From contig CAJXYU010000005.1 in the NCBI GenBank assembly GCA_913063155.1, forward strand, positions 62,001 to 126,000: DNA of 64,000 nucleotides, given 5' to 3'. This document shows, in pieces, positions 11,268-35,349 of the stretch (positions are counted from its first letter, which is position 1; the number at the start of each line of letters is the position of its first letter). The stretch comes from an uncultured Desulfovibrio sp. (GTDB lineage Bacteria > Desulfobacterota > Desulfovibrionia > Desulfovibrionales > Desulfovibrionaceae). Made by a program: the position numbers and the translations under genes. The notes under the pieces are model-generated. The model saw nothing but the letters and a program-made list of their open reading frames with translations. It did not search any database and was not told the origin of the DNA.

Positions 11268-13364
11268 ATGAGAAATGTGTCCGTATTCAGTGGTGGGGGT
11301 CTCCGTTCCTTTTTGTTCGGAATTCTTGTTTGTATAATTTTTGTAATTGCACATTTTCTAGACTCTTCGGCCGCTTTCTACACGGCTCTTGGTCTGGGCG
11401 TTACTTTTGCGGTGTGCGGGGGGCTTTGGGTTCACGCTCCCATGGCCCGCATTCGCAAGGCGTTAAGGGATGTGGAGTCCAAGACGGGTAAGGCTCGCTT
11501 TTTGGAATCCTTGGACAAGTCCGGTTTCGGAGAGGCCTTCGACGTGCTTCGCAAAGGGCACGAAGCAGCGATGGAAGAGTGCCTGTTCTTTCACAACGCC
11601 CTCAAGGTGCTCGGTAACCAGGTCGTTGTCTCCAATCGTGAAGGCAAAATCATGCTGGCCACTGAATCCGCATTGGAGATGATCGGTAAACCGATTTCCC
11701 AAGTGATGGGCTTCACGGTCAGCCAAGCCTTTTACAACACCACCAGTGGTTCCATTGCCGAAGAGGTATTTAAGAGCGGCAAGGGCAAGGACGCCACAAC
11801 GGAGCTTAGATTGTGGAACGGGCAGGTGGTGAACGTGCGGCTTTTTTCCCGGCCCATTTACAACTCATCTGATGAGATCGTAGGGGTGGTTACGTCTTTC
11901 CTCGACATGAAGGAAGTGGTCCAGAAGCAGCGCGACCTTGAAGAGCAGAAGTCCCGAATGGCCCAGGTGGGCAGCGACGTGAGCACGCTGGCGGAGCGTG
12001 TCGCTTCCGCCTCGGAAGAAATGTCCGCCTCTGCGGATGAGCAGGCCCGCGGAGCCCAGAGGCAGAGTCGTCAGACCGAGACCGTGGCCACTTCCATGGA
12101 ACAGATGACTTCGACGGTTCTGGAGGTGGCCAGCAATGCTTCGGCCACTTCGCATGCTGCAGAGGGAGCTCAGGCTTCCGCCGGCCAAGGCGTGGAAATG
12201 GTCACCCAGGCTGTGGACGCCATCAACAATGTCTCTGTTTCCGCCGGGCAGCTTGCGGAAGTGGTGGGACAGCTTGATAGCCAGGCCGAGGAAATCGGCC
12301 GGATCATCAACGTCATCAATGATATCGCGGATCAGACCAACCTTTTGGCGCTGAACGCCGCCATCGAAGCCGCACGCGCCGGCGAGGCCGGGCGGGGATT
12401 TGCCGTGGTGGCCGATGAAGTCCGGAAGCTGGCGGAAAAGACCATGACCGCCACCAAGGAAGTTGAAAGCGCCATCCACACCATTCAGGAACGTTCGGCT
12501 CATGCCATGTCATCCATGTCCCGCACGGAAAAGCAGGTGCAGGAGAGTACCGACTTGTCCAACAAGGCGGGAGAGGCGTTGCAGCAAATTATGGAAAGCA
12601 TTGAGGATATGGTCCACCGGGTTTCCCAGATCGCAACGGCCGCAGAAGAGCAGTCGGCCGCCGCCGAAGAGATCGGCAAAAGCATCGAGGAAATTGCCCT
12701 GGTCGCCCGCGAGGCCGACGAAGGCGCCGGTCAGCAGGCCTCGGCGACCCGGGATTTGGCGGAGCTTGCTCAGCAATTGCTGACAGTGTCCATGGAGTTC
12801 CGGGAGGACGGCGAAAGTCAGGATAAGCTGCGTGTGTCCACTGGGGAAATGAAGGGTATTCTGCCCAAGCTGACCCAGAAATTTGTCGAGAAGACATTTG
12901 GCAAGGCCACGTACGAGGCCATGCAGGAGGAAATGGGCAACCCGGTCTTCCTGCCTACTGCAAGTTATCCGGACGGCGTCATGCTGCAGATGGCCGAACT
13001 GGTTGCCAAGTTGGAGAGTACCACCGAGCGTGATTTTTTCCTCAAGCTGGGGCGTTTCACCGTGGGCGAGTTCTACAAGATGTACCAACGCTACTTCAAG
13101 GATGAAGGTCTCAAGGAATTCTACATGCGCATGAATGATGTGCACGCCCAACTTACCGAAGAGCATCCCGGCATTACGCCTCCCAGTTTCACCTATGAAG
13201 ACAAGGGAGACGAGCTGTTCATCAATTACCGCTCCGCCCGGGGCTTATTCGACTATTTTGAAGGCATTTTGCGGGGTGCCGCGGAGTTCAAGGGGGAAGA
13301 CGTGGACATCAAAATCAAACCCTTTGATGATGAAACTGCGCGTGCTGAAATCAAATTCAAATAA
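11268..13364 (+). CDS. methyl-accepting chemotaxis protein with C-terminal H-NOX haem domain
   Basis: A 698-residue receptor. Two adjacent membrane helices lie at about residues 10-50 with almost no periplasmic loop. A PAS-like domain follows (about 105-225). The MCP signalling hairpin (about 230-500) has the tip region [39 protein letters not shown]. The last 171 residues (528-698) form an H-NOX domain: it begins [18 protein letters not shown], has candidate proximal haem ligand H626 in NDVHAQL, and the porphyrin-binding YxSxR motif at Y654-S656-R658. The 28-residue spacing between H and Y fits the family. The start at 11268 was chosen for its AAAAGGA site; an upstream in-frame ATG at 11166 lacks one. 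cheA follows after 142 bases, in which I see only the short repeat ACAGGCT twice. Confidence 0.93.
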
Positions 13365-13506
13365 ATTATAACACTGCCGGAGCATAAACAGGCTATAACA
13401 GGCTGGTCAACGGATTTGGATTATGTAGTATTGTGCACAAGTGCCTTGTTTCGTGCATTGAGTAGCTAGTACGTCCAATCTGATCGGCTCACAGGAGAGT
13501 GCTCAC

Positions 13507-15639
13507 ATGTCGGATGATTTGAATCGGCAAATATTCAAAGAAGAAGCCTATGAGCTGCTGGCGGAGTTGGAAGGATCACTTCTGGAGCTTGAAGATGCGC
13601 CGGACGACCTCGACTTGGTCAACAGGGTTTTCAGGGCGCTGCATACCATCAAAGGCTCCGGTTCCATGTTCGGTTTCGAGGATATCGCCGAATTCACCCA
13701 TGAGGTCGAGACCGTTTTTGATATGGTGCGCTCCGAGGAATTGAACATCACCAAGGACTTGTTGAATCTTGCCCTGCGGTCCCGTGATCATATCCAGAAA
13801 ATGCTCGACAACGCCGACGCCGGCGAGGTCGTGGACCCGGAGGGCATGGAAGACATTTTGCTGGGGTTGCAGAAATTGGCCAGCGGGGAAGTCCTGGAAG
13901 AAGAGGGGGCGAAAGACGGCGTTGAAGCCGCCGAGGTTGAGGAGATCCCGGCAGAGGAAGAAGAAGTCCAGTCCCATTGCCATCTCATCAAGGTGGTGCC
14001 CCAGGATGAAGCCGGGAAGCTGGAGGAAAGCTTCGAGTCCCTGTTCGAGGAGTTGCAGCGGCTGGGCGAATTCCAGATTTTGACCCGTCCTTCAGACCTT
14101 CCGGGCACCGAAGACGTTTACTGGGAATTTCGGTTGGACACGGATCGCAACAAGGATGCGGTCAACGATGTTTTCCTATTCACGGATCTTAATCTTCGCG
14201 TCACGGTGGAGGAATACCGAGAGAAAGAGCCGCCGCGTGAGGCGGAGGCCCTGCCTCCCGAGCCTGCCATCGAGGAGGAAGAGCTGCCCAAGCTCGGCGA
14301 GATACTGGTGGAAGAGGGAGCCATACGGCAGGATGATATCGAGGATGCGCTCAAGCAACAAAAGCCCATCGGGCAGATCCTCAAGGAAGCTGGAAAAGTG
14401 ACTGATGATCAGCTCAACCAGGCGGTCAGCAAGCAGACCAAGGTGAAAGAGTCCCAGCAGGTCAAGAAACAGCAGGAAGCGGTTTCCAGTATTCGTGTGG
14501 CGGCAGAAAAGCTTGATTGGCTGGTGGACTTGGTCGGCGAGCTGGTAATTGTTCAGGCCCAGATCTCCCAAGTGGTCAGCGAGCGGAACGACCCTGTTCT
14601 GACGTCGCTTTCCGAGGAGTTGGAACGGCTCAGCGATGAGCTGCGGGACTCCACTCTGGGGATCCGCATGCTGCCCATCGGCACCTCCTTCAGCAAGTTC
14701 AGGCGGTTGGTCAGGGATCTTTCTTCCGAGCTGGGGAAGGAAATCATCCTTTCCACCAATGGTGCGGAAACCGAACTGGACAAGACCGTCATTGAGCGTT
14801 TGGGCGATCCGCTTGTGCATTTGCTGCGCAACAGCATAGACCATGGCATTGAACCCCCGGCGGAGCGCAAGGCTGCGGGCAAGATGGAAGAAGGCATGAT
14901 TTTGCTTTCCGCGGAACACTCCGGAGGCGAAGTGCTCATCCGTATCACCGACGATGGCCGTGGCATGGATCCGGAAAGCATCCGAGCCAAGGCCATAGAG
15001 CGCGGCATGATCGTAGCCGACGCCGAGTTGACGAAAAAGGAGCTGTTCAAGCTTATTTTCGAGCCGGGTTTTTCCACGGCCAAGAAGGTCACCAACGTCT
15101 CCGGTCGCGGCGTGGGCATGGATGTGGTCAAACGCGCCATTGATTCCCTGCGGGGGACTATCGATATCGACAGCATGATCAACAAGGGGACCACCATCAC
15201 CATCCGTCTGCCTTTGACCCTGGCCATCATCGACGGCCTGCAGGTTCGGGTGAGCGATGAGTTCTATGTCATCCCGCTTTCATTGGTCGAGGAATGCGTG
15301 GAGCTTAACAGCTCGGAGATAGACGAAGGTGAAGGGGGACAGAAACTGCTTCACCTGCGCGGCGAAATCGTGCCCTATATTCATTTGCGTGATTTCTTCA
15401 TGGTCGACGGGGAGAATCCTCCCATTGAGCAGATCGTCATCACCGGCGTGGAAGGCGCCCGGGTAGGTATTGTCGTGGATACGGTCATTGGCGAGCATCA
15501 GACGGTCATAAAAAGCCTCAGCCGTGTCTATAAGGATGTCGAAGGCATTTCCGGAGCCACCATCAAGGGGGACGGCTCCATTGCGCTCATTCTCGATATA
15601 CCCAGCCTGGTCCGGCGGGTTGTCGTCGAGACCAATTAG
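13507..15639 (+). CDS. cheA: chemotaxis histidine kinase CheA with inserted MshEN-like repeats
   Basis: A 710-residue kinase. The Hpt domain carries the phospho-accepting H46 in [14 protein letters not shown]. After an acidic linker and a putative P2-like region there is an unusual insert at about residues 260-310. It has two short copies of an MshEN-type pattern, [22 protein letters not shown] and [23 protein letters not shown]. The dimerisation helices and the HATPase follow, with N box [15 protein letters not shown]1 DDGRGMD and G2 [11 protein letters not shown] CheW-like domain ends the protein. The start at 13507 has AGGAGAG upstream. It phosphorylates CheY and CheB under receptor control. 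Confidence 0.95.
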
Positions 15640-31126: not shown

Positions 31127-32575
31127 TCATCCCTTGATGCATGCCAGGGGCTGGAGGCGGGCCACGGGGGCCACCAGTCCGGCTCCTGTCGCAGACGTGA
31201 TGACGTCGCTTATATCTTTATACGCACCTGGTGCTTCTTCGGCAATGCCTTTGAAAGAAAAACTGCGTACAAAGATCCCTTGGTGACGGAGTGATTCTGC
31301 TATATCTCTGCCGATAAAGCGTTTTTTAGCTGCCGTTCTGCTCAGCGCCCTCCCTGCGCCGTGACAGGCCGAGCCGAAGCTCGTCTGCATGGAGGACTTG
31401 GTTCCCGCCAGGATGTAAGAGGGGGTTCCCATGCTTCCACCTACCAGAACGGGCTGTCCTGCCGCGCGGATGTCCGCAGGGATGGCGGGGTGACCGGGAG
31501 GGAAGGACCGGGTCGCTCCCTTGCGGTGCACATAGACTGTCTTCATGGTTCCGTCCCCCGTATCGTGCCTCTCGGCCTTGCAGGTGTTGTGGGAGACGTC
31601 GTAGAGCAGGTCGAGTCGGGCGTCCGGGAAGACTTCGGAAAAAGCATGACGCACCAGGTGGGCAATGACCTGCCGGTTGGCCAGGGCACAGTTGATGCCC
31701 GCCCGCATGGCCCCAAGGTAGCGTTGGCCCAATTCCGAGTTGATGTGGGCGCAGGCGAGGTCCCGGTTTGGAATGGTGATTCCCTTGAGTTTACGTTTTC
31801 CTTTGCGGCGGGGGGCCATTTCTTCGAGATAGTCCGTGGCGATCTGGTGCCCCAGCCCGCGTGAACCGCAGTGAATGCTGACGACGGCATCGCCCTCCTT
31901 GATGCCGAAGATGGCGGCCTTGTCCGTATCCAGCACCATTTCCACCCATTGAACTTCAAGATAGTGATTTCCGGAACCCAGAGAGCCGATCTGGTCCTTC
32001 ATGCGTTTCTTGGCCTGTTTGGACACCTCGCGGGGATCGGCACCGGTCATGGCTCCGCCTTCCTCGATACGTTCCAGGTCGCGTTTCAGTCCATACCCCT
32101 GGCCAACCGCCCACCTGGCTCCTTGGCGGAGCATGTCGTCCATCTCGTCGCCTTCCAGCCGGATGTCTCCCCCCTTGCCTACACCTGTCGGAACGGTATG
32201 GAAAAGTTTTTCGGCCAGATCTTCCTGGCGAGCAAGTATGTCGTCACGCGTCAGGCCTGTGAGCAGGGTACGCACGCCGCAGGCTATGTCGAATCCCACA
32301 CCGCCCGCAGAGACCACGCCGTCATCCTCGGGATCGAAGGCCGCCACGCCGCCGATGGGGAAGCCGTAGCCCTTGTGGGCGTCGGGCATGGCCATGGATG
32401 CCTTGACGATGCCCGGCAGACAGGCCACGTCACGCACCTGCTGAATGGCCGCCGGGTCCATATCGTTCACCAGCGCATGGCTTGCGTATATGATGCCCGG
32501 CACCCGCATGTCACCTGTCTGCGGCAGATGCCATTTGAACTCACCGTGCCGCTGGAGTTGTGCAACTGCTTTCAT
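31127..32575 (-). CDS. rtcB: RNA-splicing ligase RtcB
   Basis: A 482-residue 3'-5' RNA ligase that joins 2',3'-cyclic phosphate or 3'-phosphate ends to 5'-hydroxyl ends using GTP and manganese. The metal-site regions GGVGFDIACGVR, HCGSRGLGHQ and DVSHNTCKAERH are present. The guanylylated histidine lies in SACHGAGRALSR. Length is normal. No archease or RtcA gene is adjacent. The start has only a weak GAG site and sits just beyond the terminator that ends the paaK-ACT operon, so its own promoter is not obvious. Confidence 0.95.
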   Translation of the reverse strand: MKAVAQLQRHGEFKWHLPQTGDMRVPGIIYASHALVNDMDPAAIQQVRDVACLPGIVKASMAMPDAHKGYGFPIGGVAAFDPEDDGVVSAGGVGFDIACGVRTLLTGLTRDDILARQEDLAEKLFHTVPTGVGKGGDIRLEGDEMDDMLRQGARWAVGQGYGLKRDLERIEEGGAMTGADPREVSKQAKKRMKDQIGSLGSGNHYLEVQWVEMVLDTDKAAIFGIKEGDAVVSIHCGSRGLGHQIATDYLEEMAPRRKGKRKLKGITIPNRDLACAHINSELGQRYLGAMRAGINCALANRQVIAHLVRHAFSEVFPDARLDLLYDVSHNTCKAERHDTGDGTMKTVYVHRKGATRSFPPGHPAIPADIRAAGQPVLVGGSMGTPSYILAGTKSSMQTSFGSACHGAGRALSRTAAKKRFIGRDIAESLRHQGIFVRSFSFKGIAEEAPGAYKDISDVITSATGAGLVAPVARLQPLACIKG

Positions 32576-33132: not shown

Positions 33133-34434
33133 CTAGTCATTGCGTTTGTCAATGATACGTTTGGCCTTGCCTATGGAACGCTCGATTCCCTTGGGTTCCA
33201 CAAGCTTTACCCGGGCCGTGACGCCGAGGAATTCCTTAATGTTTTTTTGTACCTTGCTTTCAAGACGCTGTAAATTTTTAATTTCATCCGAGAACATCGA
33301 TTCGTTCACTTCCACGTTGACGGTCAGGGTATCCATGTTGCCCCGGCGTTCGATGATGAGTTGATAATGCGGGCTCAGGCCATCGGTTTCGATGAGGATG
33401 GATTCGATTTGGGACGGGAACACATTCACGCCGCGGATGATGAGCATGTCGTCGCTGCGGCCGGTGACGCGCTGCATGCGGGCCGTGGTGCGTCCGCACT
33501 TGCAGGGAGCGATGTTCAGGGAGGTCAGGTCGCGGGTGCGGTAGCGGATCAGGGGGATGGCCTCCTTGGTAAGGGTGGTGATGACCAATTCGCCGGTTTC
33601 TCCCGGGGGCAGCGGTTCGCCGGATGCGGGGTCGATGACTTCGATGAGGAAGTGATCTTCCATCATGTGCAGGCCGTCCTGGGCCTCGTGGCATTCGATG
33701 CCCACGCCCGGTCCCATGATTTCCGACAGGCCGTATATGTCGATGGCCGTGATGCCCAGGCGCTTTTCAATGTCCTTGCGCATTTCCTCGGTCCAGGGCT
33801 CTGCGCCGAAGATGCCTATCTTGAGCGGCAGCTTTTTTATGTCTATGCCCATTTCCTCGGCTGTTTCAGCCAGGAATAAACTGTAGGAGGGGGTACAGCA
33901 GATGACCGTGGGCTCGAAATCCTTGAGCAGCATGACCTGCCTGCGGGTTGCTCCGCCGGAGATGGGCACCATGGCTGCTCCCAGGGTTTCACCTCCGTAA
34001 TGCGCGCCCAGGCCGCCGGTGAAAAGACCGTAGCCGTAAGCGTTGTGGACCGTGTCCCTGGATGTGGCGCCTGCTGCGACAAAGCAGCGGGCCATGAGGT
34101 GTCCCCAATTTTCGATGTCGCGTTTAGTGTAGCCGACCACGGTGGCCTTGCCCGTTGTGCCGGAGGAGGAATGGATGCGTACGATGTTGTCGCGGCTCAC
34201 GGCGAACATGCCGAAAGGGTACTGATTTCGCAGGTCCTGTTTTTCCGTGAAGGGCAGGTGACGCACATCCTCCAGACATTTGATGTCCTGAGGTTTGATG
34301 CCGGACTCGTCGAAGCGCTTTTTGTAGAAGGGCACGTTGTTGTAAACCCGTTCGCACAGGGCGCGCAGCCGTCTGAGTTGGAGCGCCTCCAGGTCCTCCC
34401 GGGGCAGGGTTTCGTTGTCCACATCGTAAATCAT
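33133..34434 (-). CDS. paaK: phenylacetate--CoA ligase family enzyme (aryl-CoA ligase)
   Basis: A 433-residue AMP-forming ligase. The adenylate motif [17 protein letters not shown] is at about residues 88-104. A second block, [17 protein letters not shown], and the late [23 protein letters not shown] hinge motif match PaaK. It activates phenylacetate or a related aryl acid with ATP and CoA. It is usually annotated as catabolic, but no other paa genes are here. Instead the gene is preceded by a phenylalanine leader peptide and a terminator hairpin and followed by an ACT protein. The ATG at 34434 has a strong AAGGAGG site. Family is secure; the physiological direction is argued in the findings. 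Confidence 0.93.
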
Positions 34435-34463
34435 CCCGATTCCTCCTTGTGTTCGCCTGAACT

Positions 34464-34502
34464 GAAAATAAAAGGGCCACTGGCTGGATGCCCGTGGCCC
34501 TT
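34464..34502 (-). promoter_or_regulatory. transcription attenuator (terminator hairpin) of paaK
   Basis: On the minus strand AAGGGCCAC (34502-34494) pairs with GTGGCCCTT (34480-34472), followed by TTTTATTTT (34473-34465). This is a good intrinsic terminator placed about 30 bases before the paaK start and 43 bases after the leader-peptide stop. A competing helix is possible. GCTCGTGG (34540-34533) can pair with CCACGGGC (34497-34490), which occupies the terminator's 5' arm. The first of these sequences is next to TAAGAAAGA (34530-34522). That stretch in turn can pair with the phenylalanine codons TCTTTTTTA (34567-34559). Confidence 0.82.
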
Positions 34503-34544
34503 GATCGTCGGTTACAATCCGTCTTTCTTACTCCACGAGCGTCC

Positions 34545-34595
34545 TCAAGGCAGGCCCATAAAAAAGAAAAAACGGAAGAAAAACAGTTTGATCAT
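34545..34595 (-). CDS. phenylalanine-rich leader peptide upstream of paaK
   Basis: A 16-codon frame reading MIKLFFFRFFFFMGLP then TGA. Seven of sixteen codons are phenylalanine (residues 5-7 and 9-12). An in-frame TGA lies directly before the ATG, so it cannot be the tail of a longer gene. Composition and size resemble the pheA leader peptide of enteric bacteria. There is no Shine-Dalgarno sequence, but the promoter-like element at 34602-34631 would place the transcript start at or near this ATG, so it may be leaderless. The terminator hairpin follows, then paaK. Translation is not proven. Confidence 0.78.
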   Translation of the reverse strand: MIKLFFFRFFFFMGLP

Positions 34596-34601
34596 TCAGA
34601 A

Positions 34602-34631
34602 ATCATGCATCAGGTGGCGCTTTGCTGTCAA
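34602..34631 (-). promoter_or_regulatory. candidate promoter of the paaK leader transcript
   Basis: On the minus strand a perfect TTGACA (34631-34626) is followed after 18 bases by CATGAT (34607-34602), which matches four of six -10 positions. The expected start point, about seven bases further, coincides with the A of the leader-peptide ATG at 34595. The 336-base gap between paaK and the nitroreductase gene is thus mostly leader RNA and promoter. The rest (34632-34770) holds a seven-base inverted repeat, GGGTTGA and TCAACCC, at 34714-34752, of unknown meaning. Confidence 0.5.
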
Positions 34632-34770
34632 GTTCGGCGTGCCCTGTCGCGTCGCTGGACGTGGTGGATGGCGCAGGGCATCTTTTAATGTATGGTATGG
34701 AAATGACGTTGCAGGGTTGACCGTAATCCTTTACTAAACCTGTGTTCAACCCATAAGGGGAGTAGCAAAG

Positions 34771-35349
34771 ATGAATTTTCGCGAGCTTGTGGCAAAAAAT
34801 CGAAGCTATCGTCGTTTTGCCCAGCATCATCCCGTTTCCATGGACGACCTCGTGGAACTTGTGGCCTTGGCAAGACTGACCCCGTCCGCCCGTAATCTGC
34901 AGGCCCTGCGCTTTGCGCTTGTCGCCGAGGAAGCCAAATGTGCCGAGGTTTTTTCCACCCTTGGCTGGGCAGGGTATCTGCCGCGTTGGCCGGGACCGGC
35001 CGAAGGGGAGCGTCCTACCGGGTATGTGGTCCTTTGTGTGGACCGCGAACTGACTGGCGAGGATTGGGGGGACCAGGGCATAGCCGCTCAGACTATCATG
35101 CTTGGTGCGGTTGAAATGGGATATGGGGGCTGCATCCTTGGCAGCGTGAACCGGGAGAAGCTTTCGAAGATTCTCGACATGCCCGAGCATCACGAAATTT
35201 TGCTGGTGCTTGCGCTGGGCGTTCCCGCCGAGCATGTGGTCGTTGAACCGTTGCCTGAGGACGGCAGCATCAAGTATTGGCGGGATGAAAGGGAAGTGCA
35301 CCATGTGCCCAAACGTGATCTGGATGAATTGATCTCGGTCAAATATTAG
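34771..35349 (+). CDS. nitroreductase-family flavoprotein
   Basis: A 192-residue FMN-binding protein. The N-terminal NRSYRRFAQHHPVSMDDLVELVALARLTPSARNLQALRFALV segment holds the usual FMN phosphate contacts (R-S-x-R-R-F and PSARNLQ). The AEMG-like block reads GAVEMGYGGCILGSV. Members reduce nitro groups, quinones or flavins; the substrate is unknown. The ATG follows AGGGGAG. It starts divergently from the paaK leader and is followed by rsfS after nine bases. Confidence 0.9.
   Translation: MNFRELVAKNRSYRRFAQHHPVSMDDLVELVALARLTPSARNLQALRFALVAEEAKCAEVFSTLGWAGYLPRWPGPAEGERPTGYVVLCVDRELTGEDWGDQGIAAQTIMLGAVEMGYGGCILGSVNREKLSKILDMPEHHEILLVLALGVPAEHVVVEPLPEDGSIKYWRDEREVHHVPKRDLDELISVKY

Follow-up and report, generated by a model that had tools for sequence, protein, structure and literature searches.

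A putative phenylalanine attenuator ahead of a paaK-like gene, and a predicted phenylalanine-limitation regulon in Desulfovibrionales

Phenylacetate-CoA ligase (PaaK) is usually regarded as a catabolic enzyme. Why, then, does the gene for a PaaK-like ligase in an uncultured Desulfovibrio sp. lie behind a short reading frame crowded with phenylalanine codons and a terminator? We addressed this question in a window of 64,000 nucleotides, the whole stretch of DNA analysed, and in related genomes of the order Desulfovibrionales. The reading that we consider likely is that the element is a phenylalanine attenuator acting on paaK and the ACT-domain gene behind it, that it belongs to a phenylalanine-limitation regulon, and that the operon would serve the salvage of phenylacetate to phenylalanine.

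The paaK leader lies on the minus strand of the window. Its promoter, as read from the sequence, consists of a TTGACA box (34631-34626), an 18-nt spacer and a -10-like CATGAT (34607-34602). Six bases past the latter, an ATG (34595) opens a leader ORF (34595-34545, stop codon TGA at 34547-34545) for the 16-codon peptide MIKLFFFRFFFFMGLP, in which seven codons specify Phe and read as the control codons. No Shine-Dalgarno (SD) sequence precedes this ORF. The 5′ strand of the putative antiterminator, GCTCGTGG (34540-34533), begins 7 nt past the first base of the stop codon; together with the remainder of the same segment, AGTAAGAAAGACG (34532-34520), it pairs with the Phe-codon stretch in ribosome-free RNA. 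A shared strand, CCACGGGC (34497-34490), can take as its partner either the antiterminator strand or the 3′ arm of an intrinsic terminator. The latter is formed by the stem-loop AAGGGCCACGGGCATCCAGCCAGTGGCCCTTT and a T-rich tract (34502-34465, −22.2 kcal/mol), with the stem at 34502-34471, the tract at 34473-34465 and GTGGCCC at 34480-34474. Downstream of the terminator come an AAGGAGG box and the paaK ATG (34434). All the elements named in an earlier note on this DNA, a 16-codon frame with seven phenylalanines between a TTGACA box and a terminator, ahead of the paaK ribosome binding site, were located in the sequence. The frame has the make-up of the short amino-acid-rich ORF of an attenuator, and its translation is predicted.

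The gene behind the leader (34434-33133, minus strand) encodes a ligase of 433 amino acids that matches the PaaK equivalog profile TIGR02155 along its entire length (positions 1-422 of 422) with 630.4 bits. Since this score is below the curated cut-off of 646.3, we call the protein a PaaK-like arylacetate-CoA ligase. Its closest solved relatives by sequence (PDB 2y27, 2y4o and 4r1l) are named phenylacetate-CoA ligases, and phenylacetate is its presumed substrate. Directly downstream lies a gene for an ACT-domain-pair protein (33088-32636, minus strand; PF19571 ACT_8, 99.0 bits), and an ACT match shares the stretch with paaK in 24 of the 27 paaK stretches compared. An RtcB-family protein (31127-32575, minus strand) comes after paaK-ACT in the window, and an RtcB-family match is also found near paaK-ACT in L190-L193, L199 and L010.

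Folding of the RNA from 34595 to 34464 (minus strand) gave −49.5 kcal/mol (z = −4.64), a stability reached by one of 200 shuffled sequences. In this fold the terminator is formed and the Phe-codon stretch is paired to GCTCGTGG...AAGAAAGACGG, in agreement with the earlier proposal that the Phe codons pair with a segment around 34530-34522. The position of the ribosome was mimicked by folding pieces of RNA that start 13 nt after the start of the A-site codon. With the ribosome stalled at any of the seven Phe positions and the terminator 3′ arm still unmade, GCTCGTGG pairs with CCACGGGC (−22.7 to −24.5 kcal/mol). Moving the A site to the stop codon abolishes this helix (−8.4 kcal/mol) and lets the terminator form; in the absence of a ribosome, a long first hairpin sequesters GCTCGTGG and the terminator forms as well. 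The alternative pairing of GCTCGTGG with the terminator 5′ arm, also suggested before, is thus seen in the folds of truncated RNAs. Terminator and antiterminator are mutually exclusive in these predicted structures, and the truncated RNAs model a stalled ribosome that would free the antiterminator strand and a ribosome at the stop codon that would mask it. When the last Phe codon occupies the A site, the full terminator (−30.0 kcal/mol) is more stable than the antiterminator (−22.7 kcal/mol), and the completed terminator prevails in every full-length fold, so the switch must be kinetic.

A coherent sequence of events can be proposed from these folds. RNA polymerase would start at or beside the leader AUG, and the mRNA would probably be leaderless. 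When Phe-tRNA is ample, the ribosome would reach the stop codon and cover GCTCGTGG, leaving CCACGGGC to pair with GTGGCCC and the terminator to form. When charged tRNA-Phe is scarce, the ribosome would stall in the Phe run and GCTCGTGG would pair with CCACGGGC, pre-empting the terminator and allowing paaK-ACT to be transcribed. In an untranslated leader, the Phe-codon stretch would pair with GCTCGTGG...AAGACGG, making termination the default. The window's own antiterminator duplex beats about 90% of shuffles (p = 0.104), and its significance was for this reason taken from relatives.

A paaK gene was matched in 184 of the 199 genomes of the order. The matches listed yielded 149 paaK upstream regions from 148 genomes; four shorter than 200 nt were dropped and 145 were examined, G194 and G003 standing outside this set. 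In 59 of the 145 regions a short ORF has its ATG 34-38 nt after TTGAC; it contains three or more aromatic codons (F/Y/W) in 50 regions and four or more in 41. The looser set of 50 includes decayed leaders of the window's genus (G080 and G086) and weak ones of g2, g39 and g43. The 41 leaders span seven genus groups: 20 of 24 regions in the window's genus (g1), 8 of 14 in g13, both in g8, both in g18, the single one in g33, 2 of 3 in g37 and 6 of 15 in g39, against 0 of 84 in all others. Throughout 984,180 strand-bases of background (the window and neighbouring stretches), only six ORFs with at least four F/Y/W codons were found at this spacing from TTGAC, and three of these are paaK leaders and one an aro-operon leader. 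Given 41 leaders in 145 paaK regions, the leader is more than chance.

The nearest named relatives are Salidesulfovibrio brasiliensis, with the paaK leader MLKQFFTVFFFFMSLT, and Pseudodesulfovibrio, and the window presumably comes from this group; further leader peptides of relatives are MIKLFFFRFFFFMDLT, MQQFLFARFFWFTGSL, MLNHDFFTFFRFFFFWTIN, MLDNALFQRFTGFFSGFFTEPQEPVA, MQSRNFPFLFSFYYFFYFCVKLGSGG and MTAFPSTISFFATYWYFWYGFRSESVVV, and a genome of another family (G003) has MNQTFTTFSLFYFYFFTFAHKGESVVSA upstream of a paaK-like gene. Both Phe codons are used (TTT 134, TTC 57 in 33 leaders). The leaders encode Phe in most of the Pseudodesulfovibrio group, Phe and Tyr in g37, and Phe, Tyr and Trp in G006. 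By the rule used, a terminator is present in 55 of the 57 regions whose leader has at least two aromatic codons, and in 34 of these 55 the antiterminator duplex is better than shuffles at p < 0.05 (not significant in 21). Within the window's genus, no antiterminator better than shuffles was found in G086 and G088, the paaK leader of G080 has no terminator by that rule, and the one of G094 has two aromatic codons only; despite their weak paaK leaders, G080, G086 and G088 have the ADTH synthase and symporter leaders described below. The earlier note had staked its proposal on the conservation of Phe codons and hairpins upstream of orthologous paaK genes. Codons, terminator and antiterminator do recur in relatives, but 104 of the 145 paaK upstream regions have no leader with four or more aromatic codons.

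For a comparison of the three strands, 41 rows were aligned on the GTGG/CCAC/GTGG core. All three strands are changed and both helices kept in G195 (GCTTGTGG/CCACAGGC/ACCTGTGG), in G006 (GTCCGTGG/CCACGGAC/CTCCGTGG) and in G012 (GTCCGTGG/CCACGGAC/GTTCGTGG). The share of antiterminator pairing in this comparison is inflated, because the strand was chosen as the best-pairing site. Covariation was assessed in a narrower alignment of 28 leaders, which omits G080, G086, G088, G197 (whose leader is the same as that of G177), six leaderless g13 regions and those of g8, g18, g33, g37 and g39. Terminator covariation was 0.229, compared with a shuffled mean of 0.134, and none of 500 shuffles was as high. 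In the antiterminator, 97.3% of the cells pair, which leaves too little variation for covariation testing; the signal was weak, with one pair changed on both sides and 98 of 500 shuffles as high. A strict motif, CTCGTGG...CCACGGGC...GACCGTGG, matched once in each of 15 of the 30 genus genomes; the window genome, whose terminator 3′ arm differs, had no match.

The g39 genomes form a case of their own. Their paaK leaders (L142-L150, L158 and others) keep the position, the promoter spacing and the terminator, with one to five aromatic codons. In 2 of 14 the antiterminator is better than shuffles at p < 0.05, and these genomes have a weak match, or none, to the alpha subunit of IOR (indolepyruvate/phenylpyruvate ferredoxin oxidoreductase). 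The switch of g39 may sense something else or be decaying, and its contribution of six to the 41 leaders was counted without being relied on.

The same leader design is found ahead of other operons. The aro operon of the window genome, in the order ADTH synthase, DHQ synthase II, prephenate dehydratase, EPSP synthase, TyrA-like protein, trpE, trpG and trpD, stands behind a similarly built leader, MDKFFSSNTFSYLYFWYWFIRARGHGRVVL, with Phe, Tyr and Trp codons and a terminator. All 30 loci examined, 25 from the window's genus, have an aro-type leader upstream of their best-matching ADTH synthase, the operon content behind it having been checked in the window genome. In all 20 further genomes an aromatic short ORF lies ahead of ADTH synthase, and in 16 its distance from TTGAC fits as well.

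When run over the 199 genomes, an RNA model built from the paaK leader matched 48 at E ≤ 0.01. Besides paaK, its matches lay ahead of a second ADTH synthase (10 or more genomes of the genus) and of a sodium:solute symporter; G194 gave a match, and in G003 the leader stands before paaK. One match, G027:C17, was taken as chance, there being no such frame at that place. At this threshold the model misses the leader of the window genome's own second ADTH synthase, MNIKTAFRFFFSFFFFRDTCGLGVRMR with its terminator, which was found by direct reading (contig C4, L279:267-350, plus strand). Of 30 genomes of the genus, 27 encode this second enzyme, and a Phe leader precedes it at all 27 loci, that of the window genome included (F182, Y16, no W); the window genome's copy looks like a Phe-responsive isozyme. 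For the symporter, a Phe leader was found in 30 of 30 loci (L299-L328), which are the best 30 of the 52 genomes with a symporter (23 from the window's genus and seven from g13; F238, Y19, W13). The window genome had no match to a symporter ortholog at 1e-150. In the window's genus, a short ORF apparently lies between the terminator and the symporter gene. The symporter is a candidate importer of phenylacetate or Phe.

Codon content differs between these leaders. In the window's genus the paaK leaders total F105, Y7 and W3, compared with F88, Y83 and W41 for the aro leaders, in a test not corrected for relatedness. By such counts, the all-aromatic operon carries an all-aromatic leader, and paaK, the second ADTH synthase and the symporter carry leaders mainly of Phe. 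Across 145 genomes, paaK leader and symporter occur together in 32, the leader only in nine, the symporter only in 18 and neither in 86 (Fisher 9.6e-12, not corrected for relatedness). The shared design on ADTH synthases and symporter places paaK in a predicted multi-operon Phe attenuation regulon in Desulfovibrionales. Its units would be paaK-ACT, the second ADTH synthase, the Na+ symporter in relatives and, in a Phe/Tyr/Trp version, the aro-phe-tyr-trp operon.

The position of the promoters bears on how these leaders would be translated. Within the search range used (ATG 34-39 nt from the start of TTGAC), this distance is 35-37 nt in 49 of the 50 paaK leaders with at least three F/Y/W codons and 36-37 nt in 27 of 30 ADTH-synthase leaders, which puts the predicted transcription start within about 1 nt of the leader AUG. 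An SD-like 4-mer precedes 13 of the 50 paaK leaders and is absent from 37; none of the 30 ADTH-synthase leaders has one, whereas it precedes all 131 paaK starts aligned to an ATG or GTG. Promoter spacing and the missing SD suggest that the leader ORF is leaderless, its 5′ end being a prediction.

In which direction would the pathway run? In the proposed salvage route, PaaK would convert phenylacetate to phenylacetyl-CoA, IOR would carboxylate this reductively to phenylpyruvate, and phenylpyruvate would yield Phe. We favour salvage over catabolism because the sister leaders sit on synthesis and transport genes, because PaaA/PaaC, the partners of aerobic phenylacetate breakdown, are missing (PF05138 in 0 of 199 genomes of the order), and because an IOR-alpha match at 1e-150 is present in 165 of the 199. 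Salvage best fits a switch for Phe-tRNA shortage that paaK shares with a synthesis gene and a transporter gene. Among the 41 genomes with a paaK leader, 38 have the IOR-alpha match and three lack it at that threshold. A paaK relative is clustered with ACT, iorA and iorB in G187 (L204) and in two clostridial records (L014 and L016). The earlier note had supposed an operon working for synthesis and including the oxidoreductase. The first idea gains from the sister leaders, the lack of PaaA/PaaC and these three clusters, and loses from the place of IOR in the window genome; the second does not hold, as the gene downstream of paaK in the window is that of the ACT-pair protein, and iorAB lies on another contig, unlinked to paaK and without such a leader. 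Neither the iorAB stretch of the window genome (L189) nor its other ligase-like genes (L002-L006) showed an aromatic ORF at the TTGAC spacing, and 18 iorA stretches of other genomes (L211-L228) had no ORF with at least four F/Y/W codons, in scans based on TTGAC and blind to leaders with a different -35 box. In L189 (348-17119, minus strand), iorA and iorB are followed by what looks by eye like a GAF/AAA-type regulator (13094-14665), and a further PaaK-like gene (348-1751) lies about 11 kb from the latter.

The strongest competitor accepts a real Phe-sensing attenuator and has PaaK work in the other direction or in another pathway, such as IOR-linked oxidation of aromatic amino acids or CoA activation of a different aryl acid; Phe limitation would then be an indirect signal. 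We regard it as unlikely. In its favour, the IOR of Desulfococcus multivorans, a sulfate reducer belonging to a different group, is assigned a catabolic role (PMC5109826, in the portion available), the window genome has its IOR outside the paaK operon, and the ligase scores under the PaaK cut-off, its substrate being putative. Against this, a starvation switch on a step of amino acid breakdown would presumably be wasteful, and the sister leaders sit on synthesis genes and a transporter gene. PF05138 was found in none of the 199 genomes, as noted, and TIGR03200, a marker of the benzoyl-CoA pathway, reached its cut-off in none of the 199 genomes and had no match in the window genome; weaker matches occur in 31 of the 199, three of them (f3) close to the cut-off, and G157, one of the genomes that carry a paaK leader, shows a partial match.

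A short aromatic peptide ahead of a gene also recalls control of the tnaC type, in which excess Phe or an aryl acid would arrest the ribosome and induce paaK rather than derepress it. This is improbable. Across genera the leader peptides have aromatic content in common and share little sequence, the geometry suits masking and release of an antiterminator, and the same design stands on the aro-phe-tyr-trp operon, which is expected to respond to lack. That the T-rich stretch instead serves the divergent nitroreductase gene starting at 34771, as its promoter or as a binding element, with the Phe frame an accident, is hardly credible, given that leaders persist in L208 and L206 with no nitroreductase match in the stretch examined, that the G006 leader consists of mixed F/Y/W codons and is not poly-T, and that codon content differs between paaK and aro leaders within one genus.

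The preferred reading, a Phe attenuator, places the locus beside known systems. The pheA and pheST attenuators of enterobacteria respond to charged tRNA-Phe, and the paaK leader resembles their Rfam family, RF01859 (Phe_leader), in its Phe-codon leader peptide, terminator and antiterminator. It differs from them in its target, an arylacetate-CoA ligase with an ACT protein, and in a leader start that has no SD. RF01859 is the best sub-threshold Rfam match of the window stretch (25.2 bits, E 0.04, model positions 1-125 of 125), under the gathering threshold of 55 bits; among relatives it scored 25.3-33.6 bits in 3 of 10, where other leader families also scored sub-threshold. No Rfam family matched at gathering score in the window, and none of the five matches that positions 34380-34760 gave up to E = 10 was a T-box; T-box and riboswitch readings were rejected. 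Anatomy, alternative folds and conservation in orthologous upstream regions all support the pheA-type attenuator first suggested for this site.

Among related bacteria, the Desulfovibrio vulgaris supraoperon aroA′-aroB′-aroQ-pheA-aroF-tyrA-trp, known here by description, is listed with a putative attenuator (PMC1173090, Table 7); its counterpart in the window genome stands behind an F/Y/W leader. That paper draws on a database for its attenuators and lists the tyrA-linked ones; its part on attenuators does not mention paaK, the second ADTH synthase or the symporter. A leaderless leader ORF at the RNA 5′ end under attenuation control is described, in the text available, for Sinorhizobium meliloti trpL (PMC7298713), which differs in its trp target and in that the 5′ end comes from earlier work there and is predicted for the paaK leader. 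On direction, the sections available of PMC13285125, in which a synthetic direction for ligase and IOR in anaerobic bacteria is debated, say of Bacteroides that an AMP-forming arylacetate-CoA ligase beside IOR favours synthesis and that IOR may serve aromatic amino acid synthesis. This possible synthetic role of the Bacteroides enzymes and of methanogen IOR is like that proposed for the window, and those sections mention no attenuator; ligase and IOR adjoin in Bacteroides, whereas they are unlinked in the window genome. In the available text of PMC5764234 the words phenylacetate and indolepyruvate do not occur, and that of PMC5343134 has nothing on the point.

No paper joining phenylacetate-CoA ligase, attenuation and leader peptide was found in the open-access literature searched. 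Among the titles and abstract openings listed from the open literature, with subscription papers mostly outside it, none describes a Phe attenuator on paaK, the second ADTH synthase or the symporter, and to that extent the earlier view of a Phe attenuator on paaK as undescribed stands. The class of mechanism is known; the targets, the probable leaderless build and the regulon were not found in print in the literature searched. The element is best filed as a predicted variant of leader-peptide attenuation with new targets, probably leaderless and spread over several operons.

A more specific form of this idea, to which we give about even chances, is a leaderless, Phe-specific regulon that unites the second ADTH synthase, a Na+ symporter importing phenylacetate or Phe, and PaaK-ACT feeding IOR, with the codons of each leader recording the product of the genes behind it. 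If this is true, leader composition could assign the product of a transporter or a ligase and settle the direction of PaaK and IOR in anaerobes. A starvation switch would reveal that direction from sequence alone, since breakdown of Phe is not expected during a shortage of Phe. The same leader predicts a physiological role for an uncharacterised Na+ symporter and for the second ADTH synthase of these bacteria.
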